In this document: positions 5,814 to 32,564 of the stretch, one piece after another
Numbering within the stretch: position 1 is the first letter of the stretch
Layout of the letters: each line of letters opens with the position of its first letter
Source: an uncultured Eubacterium sp.
GTDB taxonomy: Bacteria > Bacillota_I > Bacilli_A > Erysipelotrichales > Erysipelotrichaceae
Direction: 5' to 3'
Assembly: GCA_904395785.1 (NCBI GenBank)
Contig: CAJFOG010000107.1
Span: forward strand, 1-32,608
Length of the DNA: 32,608 nucleotides
Notes under the pieces: generated by a model
The model's database searches: none
What the model was told of the DNA's origin: nothing
What the model saw: the letters and a program-made list of their open reading frames with translations, nothing else
Program-made: the position numbers and the translations under genes

Positions 5814-5842
5814 TTGTGTTTCGTATGCGTATATGGTATCAT
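5814..5842 (+). promoter_or_regulatory. Candidate promoter of the PAS-GGDEF gene
   Basis: TTGTGT 5814-5819, 17-bp spacer, TATCAT 5837-5842. Confidence 0.5.
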
Positions 5843-5872
5843 AATACATATAGTAAAGTGAGAGAGGTTTGT

Positions 5873-7069
5873 ATGAAAAAGTTACAATTAGATAGCAAAA
5901 TCAATGATATTCTAAATTGTATTCATGCAGGTGTATTGTATTGTGAAAATGATGAGCATTCTACAATTTTATATGCGAATGATTATTTTTATACGATTGT
6001 AGGATATAGCAAAGAAGAAATACAGACACTTTTTCAAAACCGATTTGCGGATATGGTAATTGATGATGTATCTGAAATATTAGTAGATGTTGCAGCATCA
6101 ATAGAGCGTGGAGAAGATTTAGATTTTGAGTTTAGAATGCGCCATAAAGATGGTAGAGAAATTTGGATTCATGATACAGCACGATATGACAAAGAAACAA
6201 ATTGTTTTTATGTAACAATTATGGATATTACGTATATGAAACAGATGGAATATGAAAAAGAACGATTACATCAATATTTGGAGTATTTACCAAACAAAAT
6301 CGTAATTTCAGATGTACATGGTGAAATATCATATAAAAATAGCCAAGCAAGACAATGTTCCTATTTTGACCCATCCGCAAAATATATTCATGATTTAGTA
6401 GATAAACATATTATAGGAATAAAATTCGAAGATGCGCTCAATATTACAAAATTAGGTCAAAATGCAACATATGAAACGAGATTTAAAAATGAAAGTGGAT
6501 TTATAGGACATGATTTAAATTATCTGGTACCAATATACGATAAACAAAGTAAGCAATTAAATTATATGCAGGTAAGTGAAAACTTGATTTCCAATAGTGA
6601 TACATTGACAAAGTTTCCTGCAAGAGGAATGTTTGAAAAGTATTATGAAAAATTAATGGGATATGAGGAACTAGATAATGTACATTTATGTATTATAGAT
6701 ATTGATGATTTTAAGAATATTAATGATTCATATGGGCATTTAATTGGTGATTACGCGATAATTCATACGGCGAATAAACTAGCAAATATCATGGACCCTA
6801 AAGATTATATTTGTCGATTTGGAGGCGATGAATTTTTGTTCTTGATGGTTGGGAAAGATATTGCATGTGTAAAGCATAAATTACAACGTTTTATGGAACA
6901 AGGTGTAATGGATATACATGGTCAAGTTGTTCATATATCTTATAGTATTGGTATTGCCAGCACAAATTGTAAACGAATTACATATCAGAAATTGTTACAA
7001 GAAGCAGATGATATGTTATATAGAGTAAAAGAAAGCGGGAAAGGTAGAATTCTTTCTTGTGGTGATTAA
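5873..7069 (+). CDS. PAS domain-containing GGDEF protein (probable diguanylate cyclase)
   Basis: PAS/PAC-like N-terminus (ILYANDYFYTIVGYSKEEI…RHKDGREIWIHDTARY); CIIDIDDFKNINDSYGHLIGD and RFGGDEF. ATG 5873 follows AGAGAGG. Confidence 0.88.
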   Translation: MKKLQLDSKINDILNCIHAGVLYCENDEHSTILYANDYFYTIVGYSKEEIQTLFQNRFADMVIDDVSEILVDVAASIERGEDLDFEFRMRHKDGREIWIHDTARYDKETNCFYVTIMDITYMKQMEYEKERLHQYLEYLPNKIVISDVHGEISYKNSQARQCSYFDPSAKYIHDLVDKHIIGIKFEDALNITKLGQNATYETRFKNESGFIGHDLNYLVPIYDKQSKQLNYMQVSENLISNSDTLTKFPARGMFEKYYEKLMGYEELDNVHLCIIDIDDFKNINDSYGHLIGDYAIIHTANKLANIMDPKDYICRFGGDEFLFLMVGKDIACVKHKLQRFMEQGVMDIHGQVVHISYSIGIASTNCKRITYQKLLQEADDMLYRVKESGKGRILSCGD

Positions 7070-15139: not shown

Positions 15140-16402
15140 TTATTTTCCTACTCGAATAAATACTGGACCTGATCCTACATAAGCAGATGCAAGAACTGTT
15201 TGGTTACCTAACCATCCACCATGATATGCTTGTCCATTTCCAGCATATACAGCAATATGTGCCATTCCAGTACCACCATCAGCATAGTAGATTAAATCTC
15301 CTGGTTGTGCTTGAGAGGCAGATACAGTACTTCCTAATGATAAGTAATCTGCTGGCCATCCATGGAAATAAATTCCATTTGCAGCTAATGCGTTTGTAGC
15401 TAACATTGTACAGTCTTGGTTTACACCAATTTGTGCAGCAGCAGCAGCAGCAATACCATTACCACTTGCACTTGCAGATACTTTTCCGCTAGAACTTGAA
15501 GATGATCCAGTTGTATCATAAGCGGCAGTTGTAGTATCTTCTACTTTTGTAGCAATACCTTCTTCATCAAAATTATAACCTTTGTAATCTTCTGTATCAG
15601 TTACTGCTTGACCGATAGAGTTAAAGTAGTATTTATCACCATCTACGGTTTTCCATTCACTTGTAATTGCACGACCTTCAGAATCAAAATAATATTTTTC
15701 ACCATCAATTTTTTTCAATCCAGTCACCATGTAACCATCTTTATCAAAATAATATTTTTTATCATCGATTGTTTTTAATCCTTTAGTGATAAATCCTGTT
15801 GAAGAGTAATACTGTTTTTTGCCATTTTTGCTTACCCACCCAGTAGTGAAAGCACCATCTTTAGCAAAGTAATATTTCGTTCCATCGATTGTTATTTCAC
15901 CTGTTGCCAATTTACCATTTTCCATGAAGTAAACATCTTTTCCATCAACTTTTTTCCAACCTTTTTGGATAACTCCAGTTTCAGAAAAGTTATATGTACT
16001 TCCATCAATTTCATGAATACCAGTATAAGGAACACCGTATGTATCATAGTACATTGTGTTATCTTCCTGCCATCCAGTTAATAACTTACCAGATTTTTGG
16101 AATGTATATGTATGTCCATCAATTTCAACTTCACCATTTACTTTTAAACCTTTTTCATCAAAGTAGTAAGTGTCATTATCAATTGTTTTCCATCCAGTAA
16201 CTGGTTTTCCATTTTTGTCTAAGTAATAAGTACCTTCTTCTAAGAATAACCATTCTGTTTGTACTTTACCATCCACTTTGTATACACCATCATGCCAACC
16301 ATTTGCAGTTGTGGCTGCATATACAGTTGTCATAGCAGATGCACAAGTGGCGATACCTAAAATTATGGCAACGATTTTTGTGTTTTTCTCGATAAAATTC
16401 AT
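15140..16402 (-). CDS. Secreted cell-wall-binding-repeat protein with C-terminal NlpC/P60-like peptidase domain
   Basis: Signal peptide (IVAIILGIATCASAMTTVYAA), about ten ~20-aa repeats of the GWKTIDNDTYYFDEKG type, then IGVNQDCTMLATNALAA…AQPGDLIYYADGGTGMAHIAVYAGNG. Confidence 0.88.
   Translation of the reverse strand: MNFIEKNTKIVAIILGIATCASAMTTVYAATTANGWHDGVYKVDGKVQTEWLFLEEGTYYLDKNGKPVTGWKTIDNDTYYFDEKGLKVNGEVEIDGHTYTFQKSGKLLTGWQEDNTMYYDTYGVPYTGIHEIDGSTYNFSETGVIQKGWKKVDGKDVYFMENGKLATGEITIDGTKYYFAKDGAFTTGWVSKNGKKQYYSSTGFITKGLKTIDDKKYYFDKDGYMVTGLKKIDGEKYYFDSEGRAITSEWKTVDGDKYYFNSIGQAVTDTEDYKGYNFDEEGIATKVEDTTTAAYDTTGSSSSSSGKVSASASGNGIAAAAAAQIGVNQDCTMLATNALAANGIYFHGWPADYLSLGSTVSASQAQPGDLIYYADGGTGMAHIAVYAGNGQAYHGGWLGNQTVLASAYVGSGPVFIRVGK
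15590..16300 (-). repeat. Tandem cell-wall/choline-binding-type repeats encoded within the NlpC/P60-like gene
   Basis: Repeated G-x-YYFD-x-xGx(V/A)TG-style units across residues ~35-270. Confidence 0.75.
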
Positions 16403-16618: not shown

Positions 16619-18484
16619 TTATTTAAAAAACCAGTAGGTAGAACCATTATTATCTTCTGTTGCATGTATAGGATTTACTTTCTTTTCCACAAGATTATTA
16701 CTAAGCTGATACCAGGGTCCATTTTGCTGTGTATATAATGCATTAACAGTGTCTTTAAATATTTGTTTATCAATCGTGTAGTAGCGTTTATCAAGATCAC
16801 GATTATCATCAAAACCACACCAAATTCCTATAACATATTCAGGATTAAAAGCCATAACCCAAGAATCCCAATTACTTGTCCCTGATTTAGCAGCCATCAT
16901 GGTATTTGGTTCATATCCATACATACTTGGTATCGTAAAATTTTTATTTTTTATATCAAAAGGTGCACGCAACATTTGGTTTAATACTAAAGTTGTATCT
17001 CGATCTAATAATTGTTTATGATTGATTTGATGTACATAAAGTTCTTTATCTTCATTTGCTACACTCTGAATAAATGTTGGTTTTGCATATAAACCTTCTG
17101 AAGCGAATGTTGTGTAAATACTAGAAAGTTCTAATAAAGACATATTCACTGTTCCTAAAGCTTCACTTGCATTGGGAGTTGATTGTTCAATGTTAAATTT
17201 CAATAACATTTGATGTAATGTGTTAATTCCTAAAAATAAATGTGTTTTCACTGCATAAATATTATCACTTAATGCTAATGCATTGATCATAGAAATTTCA
17301 TCATTTGCATACAAGTCGGCATAATTTGATGGGGAATACTGTTCTGTATCAGAAATACGAAAGGTTGTTTTTTGTGATACAAATTGGGTAGCAGGAGTAA
17401 AGCCTTGTGTTAATGCACAATAGTATAGTAATGGTTTTATTGTACTGGCAACTTGTCGATTAGCGTATAAGGCTCGATTATATTGAGAGAGTGTATAATC
17501 TTTCCCACCAGCAATCGCAAGAATACCTGATGTAAAAGGTTGGGTAATCATTGCAGCAGTTTCTAATTCATTTGTAGTATCTTGTGTTAGATTTGTTTGT
17601 ATTGCATCATTTAATGCTTGTTGTGCTTTTTGGTCATAATATGTATAAACTTTTAATTCTTGATTTGAATCAATATTCATTTGTAATAATTCTTGTAGAA
17701 CTGCATCTATATAGTATTGTTGGATATCCTGTTGTTCACTTGTATCATGTGTATGGTATACAAGTTTTTCATTAATAGCTTGTTCATACGTTTTTTGATT
17801 AATCATGTCTTCTTTTAAAAATACATGCAATATAAGTTGTTGGCGCTGTGTTGCTTGTTCAGGATTGATAAATGGAGAATATAAAGAAGGACCATTAGGA
17901 ATACCAACTAACATAGCAACTTGAGAAACTGATAAATCTTGTAAATCTGTATCAAAGAAATAAGTAGCAGCTGCGGATATTCCATAAACACCATGACCAA
18001 AGTATAAGGTGTTTAAATAACCTTCTAAAATTTCTTGTTTACTATATTGCATTTCTAAACGAGCAGCATAACCTAATTCTTGTATCTTTCGTGAAATGGT
18101 TTGCTCATTTGTTAAGAATAAGTTTTTGGCATATTGTTGAGTTATGGTGGAACCACCTTGACGAACATTACCATGTAGCAAATTTGTCGCAAGTGCTTTT
18201 GTAATCCTAATTGGATCAATACCAGCATGGTAATAGAAACGTTTATCTTCTACTTTCACAAATGCATCTTGAATGAATGTAGGAATATCTTCAATAGCAG
18301 TCCAATGCATAGAACGTTTAAAATTTGTTTCATACATGACTTGCCCATCATAATCATAGATGGTAATATTATTGCGCTGTTTTTCTAATGATAGTTGGTC
18401 AAACAAAGCGTATGTATAAAGTAGGATGACACATGTGAGAAAGAAGAAAAAAATTCCTAAAAATAGTTTGAATACAAACTTCAT
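16619..18484 (-). CDS. Class A penicillin-binding protein (transglycosylase/transpeptidase)
   Basis: VEDKRFYYHAGID, GGSTITQQYAKNLFL (GT51); STIK, SDN and KSGTS transpeptidase motifs; start corrected to ATG at 18484 (MKFVFKLFLG) behind GAGGTGAAAAT. Confidence 0.92.
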   Translation of the reverse strand: MKFVFKLFLGIFFFFLTCVILLYTYALFDQLSLEKQRNNITIYDYDGQVMYETNFKRSMHWTAIEDIPTFIQDAFVKVEDKRFYYHAGIDPIRITKALATNLLHGNVRQGGSTITQQYAKNLFLTNEQTISRKIQELGYAARLEMQYSKQEILEGYLNTLYFGHGVYGISAAATYFFDTDLQDLSVSQVAMLVGIPNGPSLYSPFINPEQATQRQQLILHVFLKEDMINQKTYEQAINEKLVYHTHDTSEQQDIQQYYIDAVLQELLQMNIDSNQELKVYTYYDQKAQQALNDAIQTNLTQDTTNELETAAMITQPFTSGILAIAGGKDYTLSQYNRALYANRQVASTIKPLLYYCALTQGFTPATQFVSQKTTFRISDTEQYSPSNYADLYANDEISMINALALSDNIYAVKTHLFLGINTLHQMLLKFNIEQSTPNASEALGTVNMSLLELSSIYTTFASEGLYAKPTFIQSVANEDKELYVHQINHKQLLDRDTTLVLNQMLRAPFDIKNKNFTIPSMYGYEPNTMMAAKSGTSNWDSWVMAFNPEYVIGIWCGFDDNRDLDKRYYTIDKQIFKDTVNALYTQQNGPWYQLSNNLVEKKVNPIHATEDNNGSTYWFFK

Positions 18485-18884
18485 ATTTTCACCTCTATCA
18501 TGTAGTTTGAACATGAAAAAAGGTTTTAATCAAAAAAATGTAGAAATTCTTTTCTAAATGAAAATTGATAGTACAATAAGAATAACAGGAAAAGATATAT
18601 AAAATTATATTATAAAAGTAGAATATAACCAAAGTATAAAATATAGAAAAAATATAATTTATTTGAAAATAGAAATATTATGCTAAAAGATGTTTGACAT
18701 AATGCAAAAATTTATATGCTATATATAATATAAGGAAGAGTTTTTAAAAAAGTATTAAAAATACAATATTTATTTATTAAAAGAATATTCTAATTTTATA
18801 ATATTAAATGTGATTATTTTAATAAAAAACATCATGAATTTTATAGGAATGAAATGATGTTTCGTAAATTTGTGGAAAAAACTC

Positions 18885-22423: not shown

Positions 22424-23107
22424 TTACGTGGTTTCATGTTTTTGTTTATAATAATGATAATATTTATATATCAGATATATAATGTAAGCACCTAATAAAT
22501 TTAAGATAAAATCATCAATATCCATAGAGCCTGTAAGAGTTAAAAATTGGAGTATTTCTACACTACATATGATTAATATCATTGTCAAAATAAAATATTT
22601 AGTTTTATGCATAATAGGAAATAGTGTTGGTAGAAAATAAGCAAAAGGTGCAAAAGCGATAATATTACCAAAAATATTTAAAAAAGCAATTTGTTGATAG
22701 TAGGTAGAGTATGGGATAATAGATATCATAGATTGAATTGTATAAAAAGGTTGTAGGTTTGTATTGTGTTGCCATTGCTGGGATAATGCATGTAAATAGG
22801 AATCTTGTAGATTCACTTGGTCACGGGAAAACTCGCTGGCAAAAAATAATAGATGACATAATTGTGAAATATACACAATAAAAATCACAATATGAAATAT
22901 ATGTATATTTTTCTGTTGTCTAGAAATAGGTAAGTGTTTGTTATATAACATCACAATTAAATATGATGATAAAGAAAATAATAAAGTTGCTTGTATACGT
23001 AAAAAAAGGTTAGTTTGATGAGGGAAGAAAAAAAGCAGTAGGCATAAGCTATATAAGGCTATGAAAATAGATGTATAAAATAATAGTTTATGAAGATGTT
23101 TAGACAT
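22424..23107 (-). CDS. VanZ family membrane protein
   Basis: Multi-pass; NIFGNIIAFAPFAYFLPTLFP and VEILQFLTLTGSMDIDDFILNLLGAYIIYLIY are VanZ-like. Confidence 0.85.
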   Translation of the reverse strand: MSKHLHKLLFYTSIFIALYSLCLLLFFFPHQTNLFLRIQATLLFSLSSYLIVMLYNKHLPISRQQKNIHIFHIVIFIVYISQLCHLLFFASEFSRDQVNLQDSYLHALSQQWQHNTNLQPFYTIQSMISIIPYSTYYQQIAFLNIFGNIIAFAPFAYFLPTLFPIMHKTKYFILTMILIICSVEILQFLTLTGSMDIDDFILNLLGAYIIYLIYKYYHYYKQKHETT

Positions 23108-23344
23108 GCAGTTTCCTCCTTAGATATGTTTATTATGATAGCGTAGTTTTAATAGTTTCTCAAGAGTGTTTTTCTTAATTTTCGTACGTTTATTGTCGTT
23201 TTATGAAAGTAAAGAATCTAGTAAGTTTTCTAAACAGCTAAGTATTAAAATTGATAATTTTGTAGTATAATGGTAACAGTGAATATCAATAGTGTATAAA
23301 ACTAGAATAGTAGATATGATAAATGTGTAAAAGGAGATATCAAG

Positions 23345-24796
23345 ATGGTTAAAAATGATCAAGGATTGTCTAAAAAACAAACTTTAAAGTATCGTTATTT
23401 GACAAAAGAAGATGGAAAAGAGTTATTGTTGGCATATATGTTAGATTTATGTATTATGCTTTCTCCGATGATGATTTGGAATATTATAATGCTTGCGGTA
23501 TTAGGTAGCTTATTAAGTATAGCAGGTATTTTTATTGCGGATATTTTTGTAGGTGTATTTATGGTGTTTACCTTATTTATTTTAAACGCAAAAATTATGA
23601 AGAAAACAAAAGGATGTACATATGGAATGTATCATTTTGGATTTCGTATTATTCACAAAGATGGTAAAATGGCAACAAGTAAGATGTGTTGGAAACGTGA
23701 AGTATTTGGAACAAGTATTCCTTTTGTTATTTTGATGATTTTTACAAATATTTTTGGATTGATCGTGTATTGGGCTATTAATATGCTTGTGGTATGTATA
23801 GATAAACATCATCGAAGTATTATTGATTTTTTCACGAAAACATGTGTTGTGAAAATGGAAGAAGTAGAAGATGAACTTCAAGTGGTAGAAGAAACTAAAG
23901 AGGAGATTGTGGAAAAGCTGAATACAATAGACTTACGTGTTCATTCTAATTTTAGTGCACAAGGAATCTATAATGTAGAAGAGTTGTTTCAAATGGCAGT
24001 ACGTAAAGGAATTAAAACCTTATCCATTACAGACTTTAATAGTGCAAAAGCGAATGCTGTTGCATTACGTATGAGCGAGTTGTATCATCTACAATATATT
24101 CCTGGTATAGAATTAAGTGCACAATACCGTAATCATAAAATAAGAGTGTTGGCGTATTTTATTGATTATAAGAATGAATTATTTACAACAATAGAAAATA
24201 CAAGTTTATTGAATGAAAAAAAAGCGAGTGTCGAGCGTATTCGTCGCTTTGAGTATTATTTACAAATGCAAATTCCTACGGAACAATTATTAAGAAATAA
24301 TCGTTATCAAAGAATTACTGGTAAGATGATTGCACATCATGTATTATCAAGAGAAGAATATGTACACTGTAGTATTTTACAAGAATATCGAAATATGTCA
24401 TTAGATAAGGCGATTGATGGGTTAGTTAAACGTTATTTTGTGAAAGGAAGACCATGCTATGTGGAAGTAGAGTGTCCTCCTTTACAAGATATATTGGATG
24501 TTGTTAGTTTAAGTAATGGTGTAGCGATTTTAGCGGATGCCGCATATTTGTTGGATGAAAAAGAAATATTAGAAGAAATTTTAGATTGTGGTATTGAAGG
24601 AATTGAAGTATTTCAATCTTCATATACGAGATCTATGATGGCTTCCTTGTTACAAATTGCACAACGTAAGAAGTTGTTTATTACTTGTGGAAGTAATTTT
24701 TATGGAGAACAAAAAAATATAGATTTAGGATTATGTCGTTGTCCAAAAGATGCGGAGTCTTTAGTAAAACTGTTTATTGATACAAGAAAAGACTAG
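23345..24796 (+). CDS. RDD-family membrane domain fused to a degenerate PHP-like domain
   Basis: N-term …LLLAYMLDLCIML…CIDKHHRSIIDFFTKTCVV (RDD-like); C-term IDLRVHSNFSAQGIYNVEELFQMA…LSITDFNSA…IPGIELSAQYRNHKIRVLAYFID…GIEGIEVFQSSYT…FITCGSNFYGE aligns with the PHP motif series. Confidence 0.75.
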   Translation: MVKNDQGLSKKQTLKYRYLTKEDGKELLLAYMLDLCIMLSPMMIWNIIMLAVLGSLLSIAGIFIADIFVGVFMVFTLFILNAKIMKKTKGCTYGMYHFGFRIIHKDGKMATSKMCWKREVFGTSIPFVILMIFTNIFGLIVYWAINMLVVCIDKHHRSIIDFFTKTCVVKMEEVEDELQVVEETKEEIVEKLNTIDLRVHSNFSAQGIYNVEELFQMAVRKGIKTLSITDFNSAKANAVALRMSELYHLQYIPGIELSAQYRNHKIRVLAYFIDYKNELFTTIENTSLLNEKKASVERIRRFEYYLQMQIPTEQLLRNNRYQRITGKMIAHHVLSREEYVHCSILQEYRNMSLDKAIDGLVKRYFVKGRPCYVEVECPPLQDILDVVSLSNGVAILADAAYLLDEKEILEEILDCGIEGIEVFQSSYTRSMMASLLQIAQRKKLFITCGSNFYGEQKNIDLGLCRCPKDAESLVKLFIDTRKD

Positions 24797-24877
24797 AATT
24801 TTAATAGTATTACTTGAAAAAAATAAAAAATATAATAAAATTGTAATGTTAGTTTATAAATAATGGAGGTATATCTC

Positions 24878-25789
24878 ATGTATGATATTTGTATTATTGG
24901 TGCAGGATCTGCAGGTATAAGTAGTGCAGTTTATGCAGCAAGTCGTGGAAAAAAAGTAGCAATTTTTGAAGGTGATGCTATTGGAGGAAGAATTCGTGAA
25001 GTCTCTAATGTAACACACTATGCTGGAATTATGGAAATAGAAGAAGGTAATAGCTTTGTAGAGCGCATGGAAACACAATTACGTTCATATCCAATTGATT
25101 TAATTGAAGAAAAAGTTGTGAAAGCTGAATTAACAGGTGATGTGAAAAAAGTTTACACAGACAATGAATGTTATGAAGCAAAAGCAGTTATTATTGCAGG
25201 AGGTACTTCTGCACGTGAATTAGATTTACCGGGATTAAAAGAATTTGAAGGAAAAGGTACTGGATTAAATGCAGCAAGAGATGCACAAACATATGAAGGA
25301 AAAGATGTATTTGTAATTGGTGGTGCTGATGGTGCAGTAAAAGAAGCTATTTATTTATCTAAATTTGCGAAAAAAGTTACGATTATTCACTTTGAAGATA
25401 CATTAGGAACAATTTCTGAATTCCTAGATGCATTAGTGAAGAAAAATAATATTAAAGTTCGTTTACATGCTCGTTTATTTGCGGTAGAAGGTGAAACTTG
25501 TGCGGATCGTATCATTTTAGAAGATGTTCACACAGGGAAAAAACAGTATATTGAAGCTCCAGGATGTGGTGTATTTATTTATGCGGGATCTTTACCTAAT
25601 ACACAATTATATCCTGAATTAGAAAAAGAAGATGGATACTTAGTGGTAGATAAACATCAAGCAACAAATATTCCTGGTGTATTTGCAGCTGGTGATATTT
25701 GTGCAAAACAAGTTCGTCAAGTCGCAACAGCGGTAAATGATGGATGTATTGCAGGTATTAATGCAGCAGACTACATTGATGGGAAGTAA
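24878..25789 (+). CDS. NAD(P)/FAD-dependent oxidoreductase, thioredoxin-reductase fold, lacking the CxxC motif
   Basis: CIIGAGSAGISSAVYAASRGKKVAIFE (FAD), VFVIGGADGAVKEAIYLSKFAKKVTIIH (second Rossmann), GVFAAGDICAKQVRQVATAVNDGCIAGINAADYI; start ATG 24878 behind GGAGGT. Confidence 0.85.
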   Translation: MYDICIIGAGSAGISSAVYAASRGKKVAIFEGDAIGGRIREVSNVTHYAGIMEIEEGNSFVERMETQLRSYPIDLIEEKVVKAELTGDVKKVYTDNECYEAKAVIIAGGTSARELDLPGLKEFEGKGTGLNAARDAQTYEGKDVFVIGGADGAVKEAIYLSKFAKKVTIIHFEDTLGTISEFLDALVKKNNIKVRLHARLFAVEGETCADRIILEDVHTGKKQYIEAPGCGVFIYAGSLPNTQLYPELEKEDGYLVVDKHQATNIPGVFAAGDICAKQVRQVATAVNDGCIAGINAADYIDGK

Positions 25790-25803: not shown

Positions 25804-25832
25804 TTGTCAATTACTAGAATTTTCTATATAAT
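25804..25832 (+). promoter_or_regulatory. Promoter of the T-box-metG transcript
   Basis: TTGTCA 25804-25809, 17-bp spacer, TATAAT 25827-25832. Confidence 0.7.
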
Positions 25833-25839
25833 AATGATA

Positions 25840-26057
25840 AATGGTGATGATAGGAAGAGTATATATCTGAAAACTGATAGAGAGTGAATGGTTGGTGGAA
25901 ATTCATAGGAATAGGATATAGAAGATGGTCCTTGAACTGCTTTTTCGATAATGGTAGGGAAAGCCGTATATCTGCGTTAAAGATTTAAGGTGTACAGTAT
26001 GTACATGAATAAAGGTGGTAACACGAATCTCTCGTCCTTTGATGAGAGATTTTTTTA
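25840..26057 (+). ncRNA. T-box riboswitch (candidate Met specifier ATG) with terminator/antiterminator
   Basis: Stem I-like region with AGAGAG…GGTTGGTGG, T-box sequence AAGGTGGTAACACG (~26012-26025), terminator ATCTCTC…GAGAGATTTTTTT; candidate specifier ATG 25925-25927 on the 3' side of the specifier loop. Confidence 0.9.
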
Positions 26058-26075: not shown

Positions 26076-28022
26076 ATGTGTAATAGTAAAAAACCATATT
26101 TTATTACAACTGCAATTGCATATACATCGGGAAAACCACACATTGGAAATACATACGAAATTGTGTTAACGGATGCGATAGCTAGATATAAGCGTCAACA
26201 AGGATATGATGTATTTTTTCAAACAGGTACTGATGAACATGGACAAAAAATAGAGGAAAAAGCAAAAGAAGCTGGTATTACACCAAAGCAGTTTGTGGAT
26301 AATGTTGCGAAAATTGTGAAAGATAGCTTTGATCAAATGAACACTTCATATGATTACTTTATTCGTACAACAGATGAATATCATGAAAAACAAGTACAAA
26401 AAATCTTTAAAAAACTATATGAAAAAGGAGATATTTACAAAAGTACATATGAAGGTATGTATTGTACACCTTGTGAGTCATTTTGGACAGAGAGTCAATT
26501 ACAAGATGGATGTTGTCCAGATTGTGGACGTTCTGTACAAAAAGCTACTGAGGAAGCATATTTCTTTAAAATGCAAAAATATGCAGATCGTTTAATTCAA
26601 TATATTGAAGATCACCCGGAATTTATTCAACCAGAATCAAGAAAAAATGAAATGTTGAATAACTTCTTAAAACCTGGTTTACAAGATTTATGTGTTTCAC
26701 GTACCTCATTTACTTGGGGAATTCCTGTAGATTTTGATCCAAAACATGTTGTATATGTATGGATTGATGCTTTAACAAACTACATTACATCATTAGGATA
26801 TGATGCAGATGGAAATCATCATGAGAATTTTAAAAAATATTGGCCAGCAGATGTACATATTATTGGAAAAGATATTTTACGTTTTCATACCATTTATTGG
26901 CCAATTATGTTAATGGCATTAGATTTACCATTACCAAAACAAGTATTTGGTCATCCATGGTTACTTGTGGGGGATGGAAAGATGTCAAAATCTAAAGGAA
27001 ATGCAATTTATGCGGATGAATTAGTACATTATTTCGGAGTAGATGCTGTACGTTATTTTGTATTACATGAAATGCCATTTGCGCAAGATGGTACAATTAC
27101 ATGGGACTTAATGATAGAGCGTATTAACTCAGATTTAGCAAATATCCTTGGTAACTTAGTAAACCGTACTATTTCTATGCAAAATAAATATTTTGGTGGA
27201 ATTATAAGTAATCCATTAGAAAAAGAAGCAATTGATGATGAATTAATTCAATTAGCATTAGATACACCAAAACGTGTAGAAAAAGCAATGGAAACATTAC
27301 ATGTAGGACAAGCGATTGATGAAATCTTTACATTATTAAAACGTTGTAACAAATACATTGATGAAACTACACCTTGGGTGTTAGGAAAAGATGAAACGAA
27401 AAAAGATCGTTTAGCGACTGTACTGTACAACTTATTAGAAAGCATTCGTTTTGCAGGTGTGTTACTACAAAGTTTTATGCCAGATACAGCAGAAAAAATG
27501 CTTGATGAATTAAGTACATCTATGTGTGATATAGGTAGCTTAAAAGAATTTGGAAACCTAGAATGTGGACGTACATTAGATAGTAAACCAGAAATTTTAT
27601 TTGCACGTATTGATGCGAAAGAATTTATGGAAAAATTAGAAGCTGATAAAAAACAAGAAACAAATAAAGTAGAGAAAAAAGAACATGTAGATGAAGTAGC
27701 AGAAATTACAATCGAAGACTTCACAAAAATTCAATTAAAAGTAGGAACAGTAATTTCAGCAGAAAAGCATCCAAAAGCAGATCGTTTACTTGTGGAAAAA
27801 GTGGACTTAGGTGATGAAGTTCGTCAAATTGTCAGTGGGATTGCATCTAACTTTACACCAGAGCAATTAATTGGTCGTAAAGTAGTTGTTGTGTCTAATT
27901 TAAAACCTGTAAAATTACGTGGTGTAGAAAGTCAAGGAATGATTTTGTGTGCTGCCAATGATGAAGATTTAGATATTGTAAGTATTACAAAAAATCTACC
28001 AAATGGTACAATCGTAAGGTAA
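26076..28022 (+). CDS. metG: Methionyl-tRNA synthetase with C-terminal tRNA-binding domain
   Basis: AYTSGKPHIGNTYEIVLTDAIARY, CTPCESFW…CCPDCGR zinc knuckle, KMSKSKGNAI, C-terminal FTKIQLKVGTVISAEKHPKADRLLVEKVDLG…QIVSGIA. Confidence 0.96.
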   Translation: MCNSKKPYFITTAIAYTSGKPHIGNTYEIVLTDAIARYKRQQGYDVFFQTGTDEHGQKIEEKAKEAGITPKQFVDNVAKIVKDSFDQMNTSYDYFIRTTDEYHEKQVQKIFKKLYEKGDIYKSTYEGMYCTPCESFWTESQLQDGCCPDCGRSVQKATEEAYFFKMQKYADRLIQYIEDHPEFIQPESRKNEMLNNFLKPGLQDLCVSRTSFTWGIPVDFDPKHVVYVWIDALTNYITSLGYDADGNHHENFKKYWPADVHIIGKDILRFHTIYWPIMLMALDLPLPKQVFGHPWLLVGDGKMSKSKGNAIYADELVHYFGVDAVRYFVLHEMPFAQDGTITWDLMIERINSDLANILGNLVNRTISMQNKYFGGIISNPLEKEAIDDELIQLALDTPKRVEKAMETLHVGQAIDEIFTLLKRCNKYIDETTPWVLGKDETKKDRLATVLYNLLESIRFAGVLLQSFMPDTAEKMLDELSTSMCDIGSLKEFGNLECGRTLDSKPEILFARIDAKEFMEKLEADKKQETNKVEKKEHVDEVAEITIEDFTKIQLKVGTVISAEKHPKADRLLVEKVDLGDEVRQIVSGIASNFTPEQLIGRKVVVVSNLKPVKLRGVESQGMILCAANDEDLDIVSITKNLPNGTIVR

Positions 28023-29315: not shown

Positions 29316-30887
29316 ATGGAACCAATATTTAAGGACTATGAATTTCAATGTGTATTAAATTCAATGTATGAATTAAAAAATAATAAGCAATTGCAGGAAT
29401 TAGAAGATTTAGCAAATCAAACATTAACACAGGCGAAGTATCGGAAAAATAAATATGTTATATGTATTTCATATTATTATTTAGCGGAAGTATCATTTAT
29501 AAATGGTAAGCATAATAAGTGCATTGCGTATTGTTGGAATATAATTAGAGAATATAAGAAAAAAGAATATGATGAGTTATATGCACTAAATTGTAATTTA
29601 TTAGGAAAAGCATATGGTTCGATACAAGATAATGTAAACGCCTTAACTTTTCTTTTAAAAGGATATTATATCACATTGGATCAGCACTTACATGATATAG
29701 AAATTCGTATTTTAAGTAACATAGGTACGCTGTATTTTCATTTAGAATATTATGATGATGCGATTAATTTTTATAAAAAAGCAATGAAAAAAATCAGTCA
29801 ATGCGGAATTGTAGAAGAAAGCATGTATCAAGTTATTATGATAAACATTATAAGTGTGTATGTTCGTAAACAAGATTTTGATAATGTGAAAAAATGGGAA
29901 ATCTTATTTAAGAAAGAATTTCCCAATATTGAATATACATCAGAATTTGAAGGGTATGTAGCGAATAAAATTTTGGATAGTTATCGTAAACAAGATCATG
30001 TCTCTTTAGAATTTTATGTGGAAAAATTAATTAAATATTCTCAACAAACATGGATTGATATATATACAAAGCAACTATTATTTGAAACAGCAAAACGTTG
30101 TTTAATAGCTAAGCAATATAAGTTGGTTGAAAGATGTCTGTCTTGTGCGAAGGAATTTATTGGAGAAGATGATATACGTACGAATTACCAATTATCTATG
30201 TTATATGTAGAATTATATAAAGCACAAGATGACACAATTAATTTATTAAAAGAATATGATAACTTTTATATGTTAAGTAAACAAAACATAGAAGAAGATA
30301 AGCGTATTGAATATCAAGGATTGAAAAATAAATTAGAATTAGAGGCAGAATTATATGCGAAACAACATTTAATAAAAGAAAATGCTGAACTAAGTGAAAA
30401 AATGGAAAAAGACTTATTTACAGGAGTACTAAATAAATTTTCTTTTATTCAAAAAGTTGACCATGATTTAAGTGTTATCACAGATGATTCATATAGTATA
30501 TTAGTGGTGATTGATGTGGATGATTTTAAAGGAATTAATGATCACTATGGACATTTAGTTGGTGATGAAGTGTTAAAAAGTATTTCGAATGTCTTATTAA
30601 AAATGACGAATGAAACTGATATTGTAGGAAGAATTGGTGGGGATGAATTTTGTATTTTTATGAATTGTATAAAAAGTATGGATTTAATAAAGAATAAGTT
30701 AAACATACTGATGGAGGAAATTGGCAAAATTCAAATATCTTGTGCTAATGAATACCGTATAAAAGTAAGTATTGGGGTAGCTGGTGTAAGAAGTTCTTGT
30801 GATTTTAAAACTTTATTTGAAAAAGCTGATGAAGCACTATATTCAGCAAAGAAAAAAGGAAAAAATATTATGGTAATACGACATTAA
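29316..30887 (+). CDS. TPR-like repeat protein with C-terminal GGDEF domain (probable diguanylate cyclase)
   Basis: Helical repeats (LNCNLLGKAYGSIQDNVNALTFLLKGY…ILSNIGTLYFHLEYYDDAINFYKKA); VVIDVDDFKGINDHYGHLVGDEV, GRIGGDEF. Confidence 0.88.
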   Translation: MEPIFKDYEFQCVLNSMYELKNNKQLQELEDLANQTLTQAKYRKNKYVICISYYYLAEVSFINGKHNKCIAYCWNIIREYKKKEYDELYALNCNLLGKAYGSIQDNVNALTFLLKGYYITLDQHLHDIEIRILSNIGTLYFHLEYYDDAINFYKKAMKKISQCGIVEESMYQVIMINIISVYVRKQDFDNVKKWEILFKKEFPNIEYTSEFEGYVANKILDSYRKQDHVSLEFYVEKLIKYSQQTWIDIYTKQLLFETAKRCLIAKQYKLVERCLSCAKEFIGEDDIRTNYQLSMLYVELYKAQDDTINLLKEYDNFYMLSKQNIEEDKRIEYQGLKNKLELEAELYAKQHLIKENAELSEKMEKDLFTGVLNKFSFIQKVDHDLSVITDDSYSILVVIDVDDFKGINDHYGHLVGDEVLKSISNVLLKMTNETDIVGRIGGDEFCIFMNCIKSMDLIKNKLNILMEEIGKIQISCANEYRIKVSIGVAGVRSSCDFKTLFEKADEALYSAKKKGKNIMVIRH

Positions 30888-30995: not shown

Positions 30996-32564
30996 ATGAA
31001 ATTTATCGCACAGAATACAAAGTATCAAGCTTCTATTGATACTTTTATACACTATAGAGATAAAAAACAAATACAAAATATGTTTGAAGCATCATTTAAA
31101 TTATATGCAGAAGCTTGTAATGATTGCGATATCCAAGTAATTAATTATGCAAATTATTTTCTTGCGGAAGCTTACTTTTATTTAAATGATTTAGAAAAAT
31201 GTTATGCTAAATGTTGGGAATTAATTGAATATTATGATCGTAACATTAAAGATATAGTCTATGTAATTACTTGCAATTTGTTAGCGTTAATATATCAAGA
31301 AAAATCAGATTTGCATAATGCTATTATGTATTTTTTTAAAGGGTATCAACAAGCACAAGTAGAAAATTCTAAGGAGTTTGAATTAAAAATATTGAATAAT
31401 ATAGGGGCATTATTTTTTGATGTAGAGTGTTATGATGAAGCATTGTATTATTTTATGCAGGTATTTGAAGCAATAGATAATAAGAATGATTATGCTGAAA
31501 TATATGAAGTAACACTAGTGAATATTCTAACTTCTTATACACGTAAAAAAGACTTAAAGAGTGCAATGGAATGGGAGAATAAATATCAATATGTGTTTAA
31601 AAAACCAATTAATATAATAGGGAAATTGGGTTATATGTCTTATAAAGTAATTCGCGATGCTTATAATCATGATTTAGTATCTATGAAAAAAAATTTAAAT
31701 TTGTTTTTAGAAGAATCAAAAGAAAATTGGACAGGGTATATTTCTTCTATGTTAATATTGGATGCTGTAGAAGCTTGTTTATCGGTTAATGCATATGATG
31801 AAGCGAATCAAGGCTTTTCTTTAATTGAACAAGAATCAGAAGATGATTATAAATTGAAATTAAAGATGACAGATTTATATGTGCAAATGTATAAGAAAAC
31901 AAATAATAAAGATATGTTAATAAAATGTCTTAAAGTATATTATGAATATCATCATAAATTGAGTGAAAAAGATTCGGAGATAGAATTTAAAAACCTAAAA
32001 AACATTGTACAATTAGAAGAAGAGCGCTATTTGAAAAAACAATTGTTGAAAAAGCAAATAGAATTATATACAAAAAATGAACATGATGAATTTTTAAATA
32101 TGTTGCATAAAAAGAGTTATATAGAACATGTAAATGCATATTTTATGAATAAAGATGCATATCAATACGCAGCTTTTGTAATTGTTGATGTGGATAATTT
32201 TAAATATGTAAATGATACATATGGGCATATGATTGGAGATAAAGTATTAAAACAATTATCTGAGATTTTTAAATGTAATTTAAGAAAAGATGATATTATC
32301 GGTAGAATAGGAGGAGATGAATTTAGTTTTACATTAAAGGATATCAAAGATAAAGAGTGCATAGGAATAAAATTACAATATATTTTGGATGAGGTAAATC
32401 AAATCAAAGTAGAAGGGTTGCATGAAAATATATCTGTGAGTATTGGAGGTGTCATTACTAATCAAAATGTAGAATATGAAGCTTTATTAAAAGTTGCGGA
32501 TGAAGCTTTATATGATGCCAAAGCGAAAGGTAAAAATACATATGCAATCATTGATAAATCTTAA
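30996..32564 (+). CDS. TPR-like repeat protein with C-terminal GGDEF domain, paralogue of the preceding gene
   Basis: ITCNLLALIYQEKSDLHNAIMYFFKGY…ILNNIGALFFDVECYDEALYYF; VIVDVDNFKYVNDTYGHMIGDKVLKQ, GRIGGDEF. Confidence 0.88.
   Translation: MKFIAQNTKYQASIDTFIHYRDKKQIQNMFEASFKLYAEACNDCDIQVINYANYFLAEAYFYLNDLEKCYAKCWELIEYYDRNIKDIVYVITCNLLALIYQEKSDLHNAIMYFFKGYQQAQVENSKEFELKILNNIGALFFDVECYDEALYYFMQVFEAIDNKNDYAEIYEVTLVNILTSYTRKKDLKSAMEWENKYQYVFKKPINIIGKLGYMSYKVIRDAYNHDLVSMKKNLNLFLEESKENWTGYISSMLILDAVEACLSVNAYDEANQGFSLIEQESEDDYKLKLKMTDLYVQMYKKTNNKDMLIKCLKVYYEYHHKLSEKDSEIEFKNLKNIVQLEEERYLKKQLLKKQIELYTKNEHDEFLNMLHKKSYIEHVNAYFMNKDAYQYAAFVIVDVDNFKYVNDTYGHMIGDKVLKQLSEIFKCNLRKDDIIGRIGGDEFSFTLKDIKDKECIGIKLQYILDEVNQIKVEGLHENISVSIGGVITNQNVEYEALLKVADEALYDAKAKGKNTYAIIDKS

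Follow-up and report, generated by a model that had tools for sequence, protein, structure and literature searches.

RDD-PHP fusion proteins of the Erysipelotrichaceae: loss of metal ligands in a membrane-anchored PHP domain with a probable non-catalytic role

The protein described here joins an RDD membrane domain to a PHP domain that keeps two of the nine metal ligands of active PHP phosphoesterases, and it belongs to a clade of RDD-PHP fusions most of which are degraded in the same part. It is encoded in a window (the whole stretch of DNA analysed, 32.6 kb, about 31% G+C) that is a single contig of a 1.9-Mb draft genome of an uncultured Eubacterium sp. We consider it probable that the PHP, tethered to the membrane and without catalytic activity, serves for binding or regulation.

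The fusion protein and its metal ligands

An earlier note, made without database searches, had described an intact reading frame in which an RDD module is fused to a PHP domain stripped of its ligands. The frame is indeed intact, with 483 codons, a start, a stop and a ribosome-binding site (Table 1), and Pfam scores both domains within it above their gathering cut-offs: RDD (PF06271) at residues 28-164 with an E value of 8.8e-8 (33 bits against 24.1), and PHP (PF02811) at residues 196-307 with an E value of 5.4e-8. The PHP part proved longer than had been estimated, about 286 residues instead of about 265.

Table 1. Positions of the fusion gene, its domains and its neighbours in the window.
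Feature	Position	Strand	Remarks
VanZ-family membrane protein, divergent	22424..23107	-	neighbour in 4 window-clade loci, window included
Ribosome-binding site AAAGGAGAT, strong	23331..23339	+	5' of start codon; by eye
RDD-PHP fusion gene, 483 aa	23345..24796	+	ATG at 23345, stop 24794-24796; one copy in own genome
RDD membrane domain, aa 28-164	23426..23836	+	Pfam; hydrophobic helices ~21-53, 60-87, 112-152
Linker, aa 165-194	23837..23926	+	AlphaFold; aa 176-186 low confidence
PHP pseudo-phosphoesterase domain (predicted), aa 195-480	23927..24784	+	profiles, alignment, model
Helical insertion domain, RNase AM type, aa 278-364	24176..24436	+	model, alignment
FAD/pyridine nucleotide-disulphide oxidoreductase (TrxR-like)	24863..25789	+	66 bp downstream of fusion gene
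Promoter-like site (25804-25832) and T-box leader (25838-26042) of metG	25804..26042	+	
metG (MetRS)	26076..28022	+	downstream, same strand in 30/36 fusion loci examined

The window PHP is a full domain of the RNase AM/nucleoside-bisphosphatase type. The NCBIfam models for nucleoside bisphosphatase (NF041577) and for the RNase RNM equivalog (NF047791) align with residues 194-465, far below their equivalog cut-offs (94 bits against 400 and 72 bits against 375, respectively), and the matches of a phmmer search against PDB sequences were RNase AM (7ug9/9etk), CV1693 (2yb1) and 3e0f. AlphaFold modelled the whole protein with a pLDDT of 92.4, and the PHP part alone with 96.8 (pTM 0.92); Foldseek matched the model to RNase AM 9etk with TM scores of 0.74/0.77, and to 9etk, 3e0f and 2yb1 within a range of 0.69-0.77. 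By its profile match and its distorted beta/alpha-barrel the domain belongs to the PHP superfamily as a fold, and the confident model follows RNase AM and CV1693 over the whole domain, as the motif-by-motif reading in the note had implied.

Alignment with E. coli RNase AM by phmmer placed substitutions at seven of the nine ligands: H13 corresponds to R198, D20 to Q206, H45 to F231, H83 to R267, H198 to D398, D255 to N451 and H257 to Y453. The sole survivors are H200 (H15 in RNase AM) and E256 (E72), the same two residues, the second H of motif I and the E of GIE, that the note had singled out. His15 is here counted with the alpha site, in keeping with PHP structures in general. In RNase AM, Mn-alpha is bound by His13, Glu72 and Asp255, Mn-beta by Glu72, His83 and His198, and Mn-gamma by Asp20, His45 and His257 (PMC9410882); His15 is a further HxH ligand in the nine-residue PHP consensus (PMC3666897). 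All three sites are broken in the window protein and none is complete. The possibility that the ligands lie elsewhere in the chain found no support, since no relocation was seen in the alignment and the model matches RNase AM and CV1693. The substituted motifs quoted in the note (DLRVH, TDFN, IRVLAY, GKMIA, LADA, SYT and SNFYG) are each present in the sequence, and most of them represent ligand losses; the changes of RPHIA to GKMIA and of SHS to SYT fall outside the nine, and the change of D20 to Q206 was absent from the list. Intact stand-alone PHPs of the same order also lack RPHIA and read GEMFAE there.

Set against the ligand pattern of active PHPs (H H D/H H E H C/H D/N H), the window protein has 2/9, or 3/9 if N451 is allowed. 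N451 could conceivably bind metal, since PolC uses Asn at that position; the D-to-N change at the D255 position, D226N in M. tuberculosis DnaE1, leaves a dead exonuclease (PMC5636811). The RNase AM mutants D20A, E72A and D255/H257A are inactive, and Arg201 of that enzyme forms a salt bridge with the bound sulfate (PMC9410882). In the window protein this arginine aligns with A400. Because no site is complete, ligand mutations abolish activity in RNase AM and DnaE1, and Arg201 is replaced, catalysis has very likely been lost.

The fusion family and its pattern of loss

Genomes of the genus and of the bacterial family (196, then 273 genomes) were searched together with samples of the order, class and phylum. 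At least 52 RDD-PHP fusions were found. They come from 25 of the family's 60 genera, and the order, class and phylum samples contained no fusion from outside it. In a tree of the PHP part, from which the ligand columns were left out, the 52 fusions form one clade (support 100/99.6) adjoining stand-alone PHPs of the same order. The window protein carries the features that define the family, namely RDD and PHP in one frame, a PHP part within the fusion clade, and both R298 and F365.

All nine ligands are kept by three of the 52 fusions (L039, L048 and L066), which are positioned at the bases of both main branches; the other 49 are degraded, and both intactness and the lid motif disappeared independently in two lineages or more. 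The full-length stand-alone relatives compared keep 9/9 without exception (21/21). Among those of the same order, L071-L076 lie in the sister group of the fusion clade and L064 branches just outside it; they differ from the fusions in having 9/9 ligands, the R...NFYWD motif and no RDD domain. Because the intact fusions are basal, the stand-alone relatives are complete and at least two changes are required, the ancestor of the fusions was most likely an active membrane-anchored enzyme, and inactivation would have proceeded in parallel after fusion. The note had allowed that homologues with intact motifs might expose the window gene as a single-strain degenerate copy. Intact homologues do exist, yet the loss is common to 49 fusions from many genera, and single-strain decay or assembly error is ruled out by the 52-member clade and the intact frames. 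Rescue by an intact stand-alone paralogue, in the way that epsilon compensates in Pol III, was rejected as a general account because the search of the window genome gave no TrpH-like paralogue and only one match appears in each of several fusion genomes.

In RNase AM the insertion region holds a 5'-phosphate cavity with Arg107, Arg110 and Arg141 (PMC9410882). The window insertion domain keeps K292, R298, R320 and Q322 and is without the R352...N359-F-Y-W-D motif of intact relatives. R352 and W362 are present in 16/16 intact PHPs of the order versus 0/49 degraded fusions, and N359 and Y361 separate the two groups nearly as well. The loss of R352/W362 is independent of the ligands and provides a second, clean sign that an enzyme has turned into a pseudoenzyme.

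Among the metal sites, beta has been lost most widely, H83 being replaced by Arg in 42/52 fusions and His standing at the H198 position in only six. Such a change of His to Arg has a counterpart in E. coli DNA polymerase III, whose PHP domain is dead, and Arg is reported as the most frequent substitute in the inactivated PHP domains of polymerases (PMC3666897). The His of SSWH, two residues past the lost H198 in the majority class, was considered as a substitute ligand and rejected, as its column varies among H, G, N, Q and R. The gamma site is wholly lost in the window clade (window, L008 and L013-L016) and in the L050-L054 clade, with mostly Tyr at H257 in both. H45 and H257 were lost together in three of three independent comparisons, too few for significance.

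Most fusions (39/52) have a complete set of gamma ligands, and 23 fusions show alpha 3/4, beta 0 and gamma 3, a pattern that would suit mono- or binuclear phosphoesterases in the majority class, with the window protein as an extreme case; in E. coli Pol III, three substitutions turn the PHP domain into one that binds two metals (PMC3666897). We nevertheless regard enzymes with fewer metals as improbable, given that the R352/W362 motif is gone even from fusions with 7-8 ligands, that mutating a single ligand inactivates RNase AM or DnaE1 and that the window protein has no complete site.

Variation in domain layout was also observed. L058-L060 and L062 are RDD-PHP proteins of about 590-620 aa with about 100 extra residues between RDD and PHP, and L070 (2926-4470, + strand), from the same bacterial family, combines a HAD phosphatase-like N-terminal domain, recognised by eye, with an intact 9/9 PHP.

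Constraint on the PHP domain and genomic context

Several residues are specific to the fusions and strongly conserved among them: R298 and F365 (both 52/52), Y251 (100%), N237 (98%), R320 (46/52) and Q322 (42/52). The window protein itself keeps S227, N237, Y251, R298, R320, Q322 and F365. In those close degraded pairs for which dN/dS is computable, its value for the PHP part is 0.016-0.135, a range from which pairs at saturation and the pair window-L008 (0.26) are left out. With MetRS as the yardstick, the PHP part evolves 1.9-4.0 times as fast in the degraded classes versus 3.2 times in the single intact-intact pair, and the PHP/RDD rate ratio is 0.64-0.97 across classes and about 0.9 in the window clade, so that PHP evolves no faster than RDD. 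Because of these rates and the persistence of the fusion-specific residues, we read the dead PHP as a retained pseudoenzyme and not as a product of decay. The preference of the earlier note for selection on a non-catalytic role is thus backed by the fold, the conserved fusion-specific residues and the rates.

It might be held that only RDD is needed in the window lineage and that PHP is eroding in place. The window clade evolves fast (44-53% identity, versus 82-87% for MetRS, with dN/dS about 0.3 and dS near saturation), the lost ligands differ by lineage, and the RDD part, from a family with one Arg and two Asp conserved, has also lost a signature residue, keeping D34, R118 and D161 while the first signature Arg is replaced by L27, though it is Arg in several relatives. 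Such erosion is nevertheless unlikely: at this level of identity all six members of the window clade have intact frames, many PHP positions, fusion-specific ones included, are invariant in all six, the PHP/RDD ratio stays near 0.9, and the PHP part is modelled with a pLDDT of 96.8. Constraint in the window clade is real but weaker than in other lineages, because the gene evolves fast there.

An operon with metG was considered and rejected. In the window a promoter-like site and a T-box leader precede metG itself, and the gaps are mostly 200-330 bp; because of the promoter-like site and leader, metG is probably a separate transcription unit and its proximity is read as synteny. No conserved operon partner was found among the fusion loci, where neighbours vary. 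A zinc-ribbon membrane protein of about 106 aa often lies directly 5' of the fusion in L077, L078, L080, L081 and L084-L086, and is not beside the window copy. The window also encodes a pair of neighbouring GGDEF proteins of 523 and 522 aa, each with TPR-like regions (29316-30887 and 30996-32564, + strand), a third GGDEF protein with a PAS domain (5816-7069), and a choline-binding-repeat protein with an NlpC/P60 domain (15140-16402, - strand), which adjoins a class A penicillin-binding protein (16619-18514, - strand).

Proposed role and comparison with known systems

The PHP domain is placed on the cytoplasmic side with moderate confidence, because the loop 88-111 and the segment past residue 152, as read from the sequence, are basic. 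RDD has been proposed to hold an intramembrane site facing the cytoplasm, and its fusions to other domains, including VanZ-RDD, are known (PMC12419801). The RDD protein SppI acts on SppA by binding and inhibiting it, and the C-terminal domain of SppI is important here (PMC7568657). Although this precedent, in which the C-terminal domain of an RDD protein controls SppA, invites the idea that the window protein inhibits the same membrane protease, we find that scarcely credible, as peptidase S49 (PF01343, SppA) was absent from the window genome and five other fusion-bearing genomes (0/6), with 11/14 controls positive.

A membrane-tethered ligand sensor or adaptor, as the note suggested, is plausible. 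The ancestor would have been an active three-metal phosphoesterase resembling RNase AM and TrpH; after fusion, the metal ligands, together with the substrate motif in the insertion, would have been lost at least twice, while the fold, the insertion domain and the fusion-specific residues were kept. The RDD helices would tether the dead PHP, most likely on the cytoplasmic side, and its present action would be binding and not hydrolysis. More tentatively, the cleft may bind a phosphorylated ligand and signal to RDD: its basic residues (R267 in place of a metal ligand, with K292, R298 and R320) might still hold such a ligand, for example a 5'-phosphate nucleotide or RNA end, and occupancy of the cleft might alter the state or the partners of the RDD membrane part. 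The further suggestion of a new class of membrane signalling proteins, in which a dead cleft would recognise a phosphorylated nucleotide or the 5' end of an RNA and would gate or steer RDD, having evolved at least twice from an active membrane enzyme, is speculative.

The main alternative is that PHP serves as a rigid protein-binding scaffold or adaptor in a membrane complex, with no small ligand; it amounts to the best explanation minus ligand sensing, and the probabilities of the two overlap. The PHP of E. coli Pol III has lost 5/9 ligands yet keeps its fold and a role in stability (PMC3666897), SppI offers an RDD protein that acts by binding (PMC7568657), and cleft residues differ among the degraded clades, as expected if the cleft is unselected. 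A purely structural role is, in our view, possible but doubtful, since R298 and R320, which are basic and conserved in the insertion domain, suggest a charged site and the loci examined yielded no conserved operon partner.

Because intact members stand beside dead ones in a well-supported tree, the path from enzyme to pseudoenzyme can be traced site by site and probed with matched proteins, the intact L039, L048 and L066 versus the degraded ones. The results also caution against annotating the 49 degraded proteins as phosphoesterases. The family would be a second case of dead PHP domains besides those of replicative polymerases, and would pair the little-understood RDD domain with a soluble one whose fold is known. 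No description of an RDD and PHP fusion, or of a PHP pseudoenzyme of this kind, was found in the literature searched; dead PHP domains are known from polymerases, whereas these papers seem to contain no account of the RDD-PHP architecture, of parallel loss inside a single family or of intact members paired with dead ones.

RNase AM (YciV/RNM) and the 3',5'-nucleoside bisphosphatase CV1693, TrpH-type PHPs with a helical insertion, are the top sequence and structure matches and share the entire PHP fold and the insertion domain with the window protein, which differs from them in the loss of 7/9 metal ligands and of the phosphate-stabilising Arg201 and in its attached membrane domain. On the membrane side, SppI of B. 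subtilis, the Halobacillus andaensis RDD protein (Na+/H+ antiport) and the VanZ-RDD fusions share a module of the same Pfam family; the window protein stands apart from these in its attached PHP, in the absence of SppA from its genome and in its missing first signature Arg. The PHP domain of E. coli DNA polymerase III alpha is alike in having lost ligands and kept its fold, with Arg as the commonest replacement (PMC3666897), but it is part of a polymerase, whereas the window PHP is membrane-anchored, belongs to the TrpH/RNase AM branch and has losses that can be traced within a clade with intact members.
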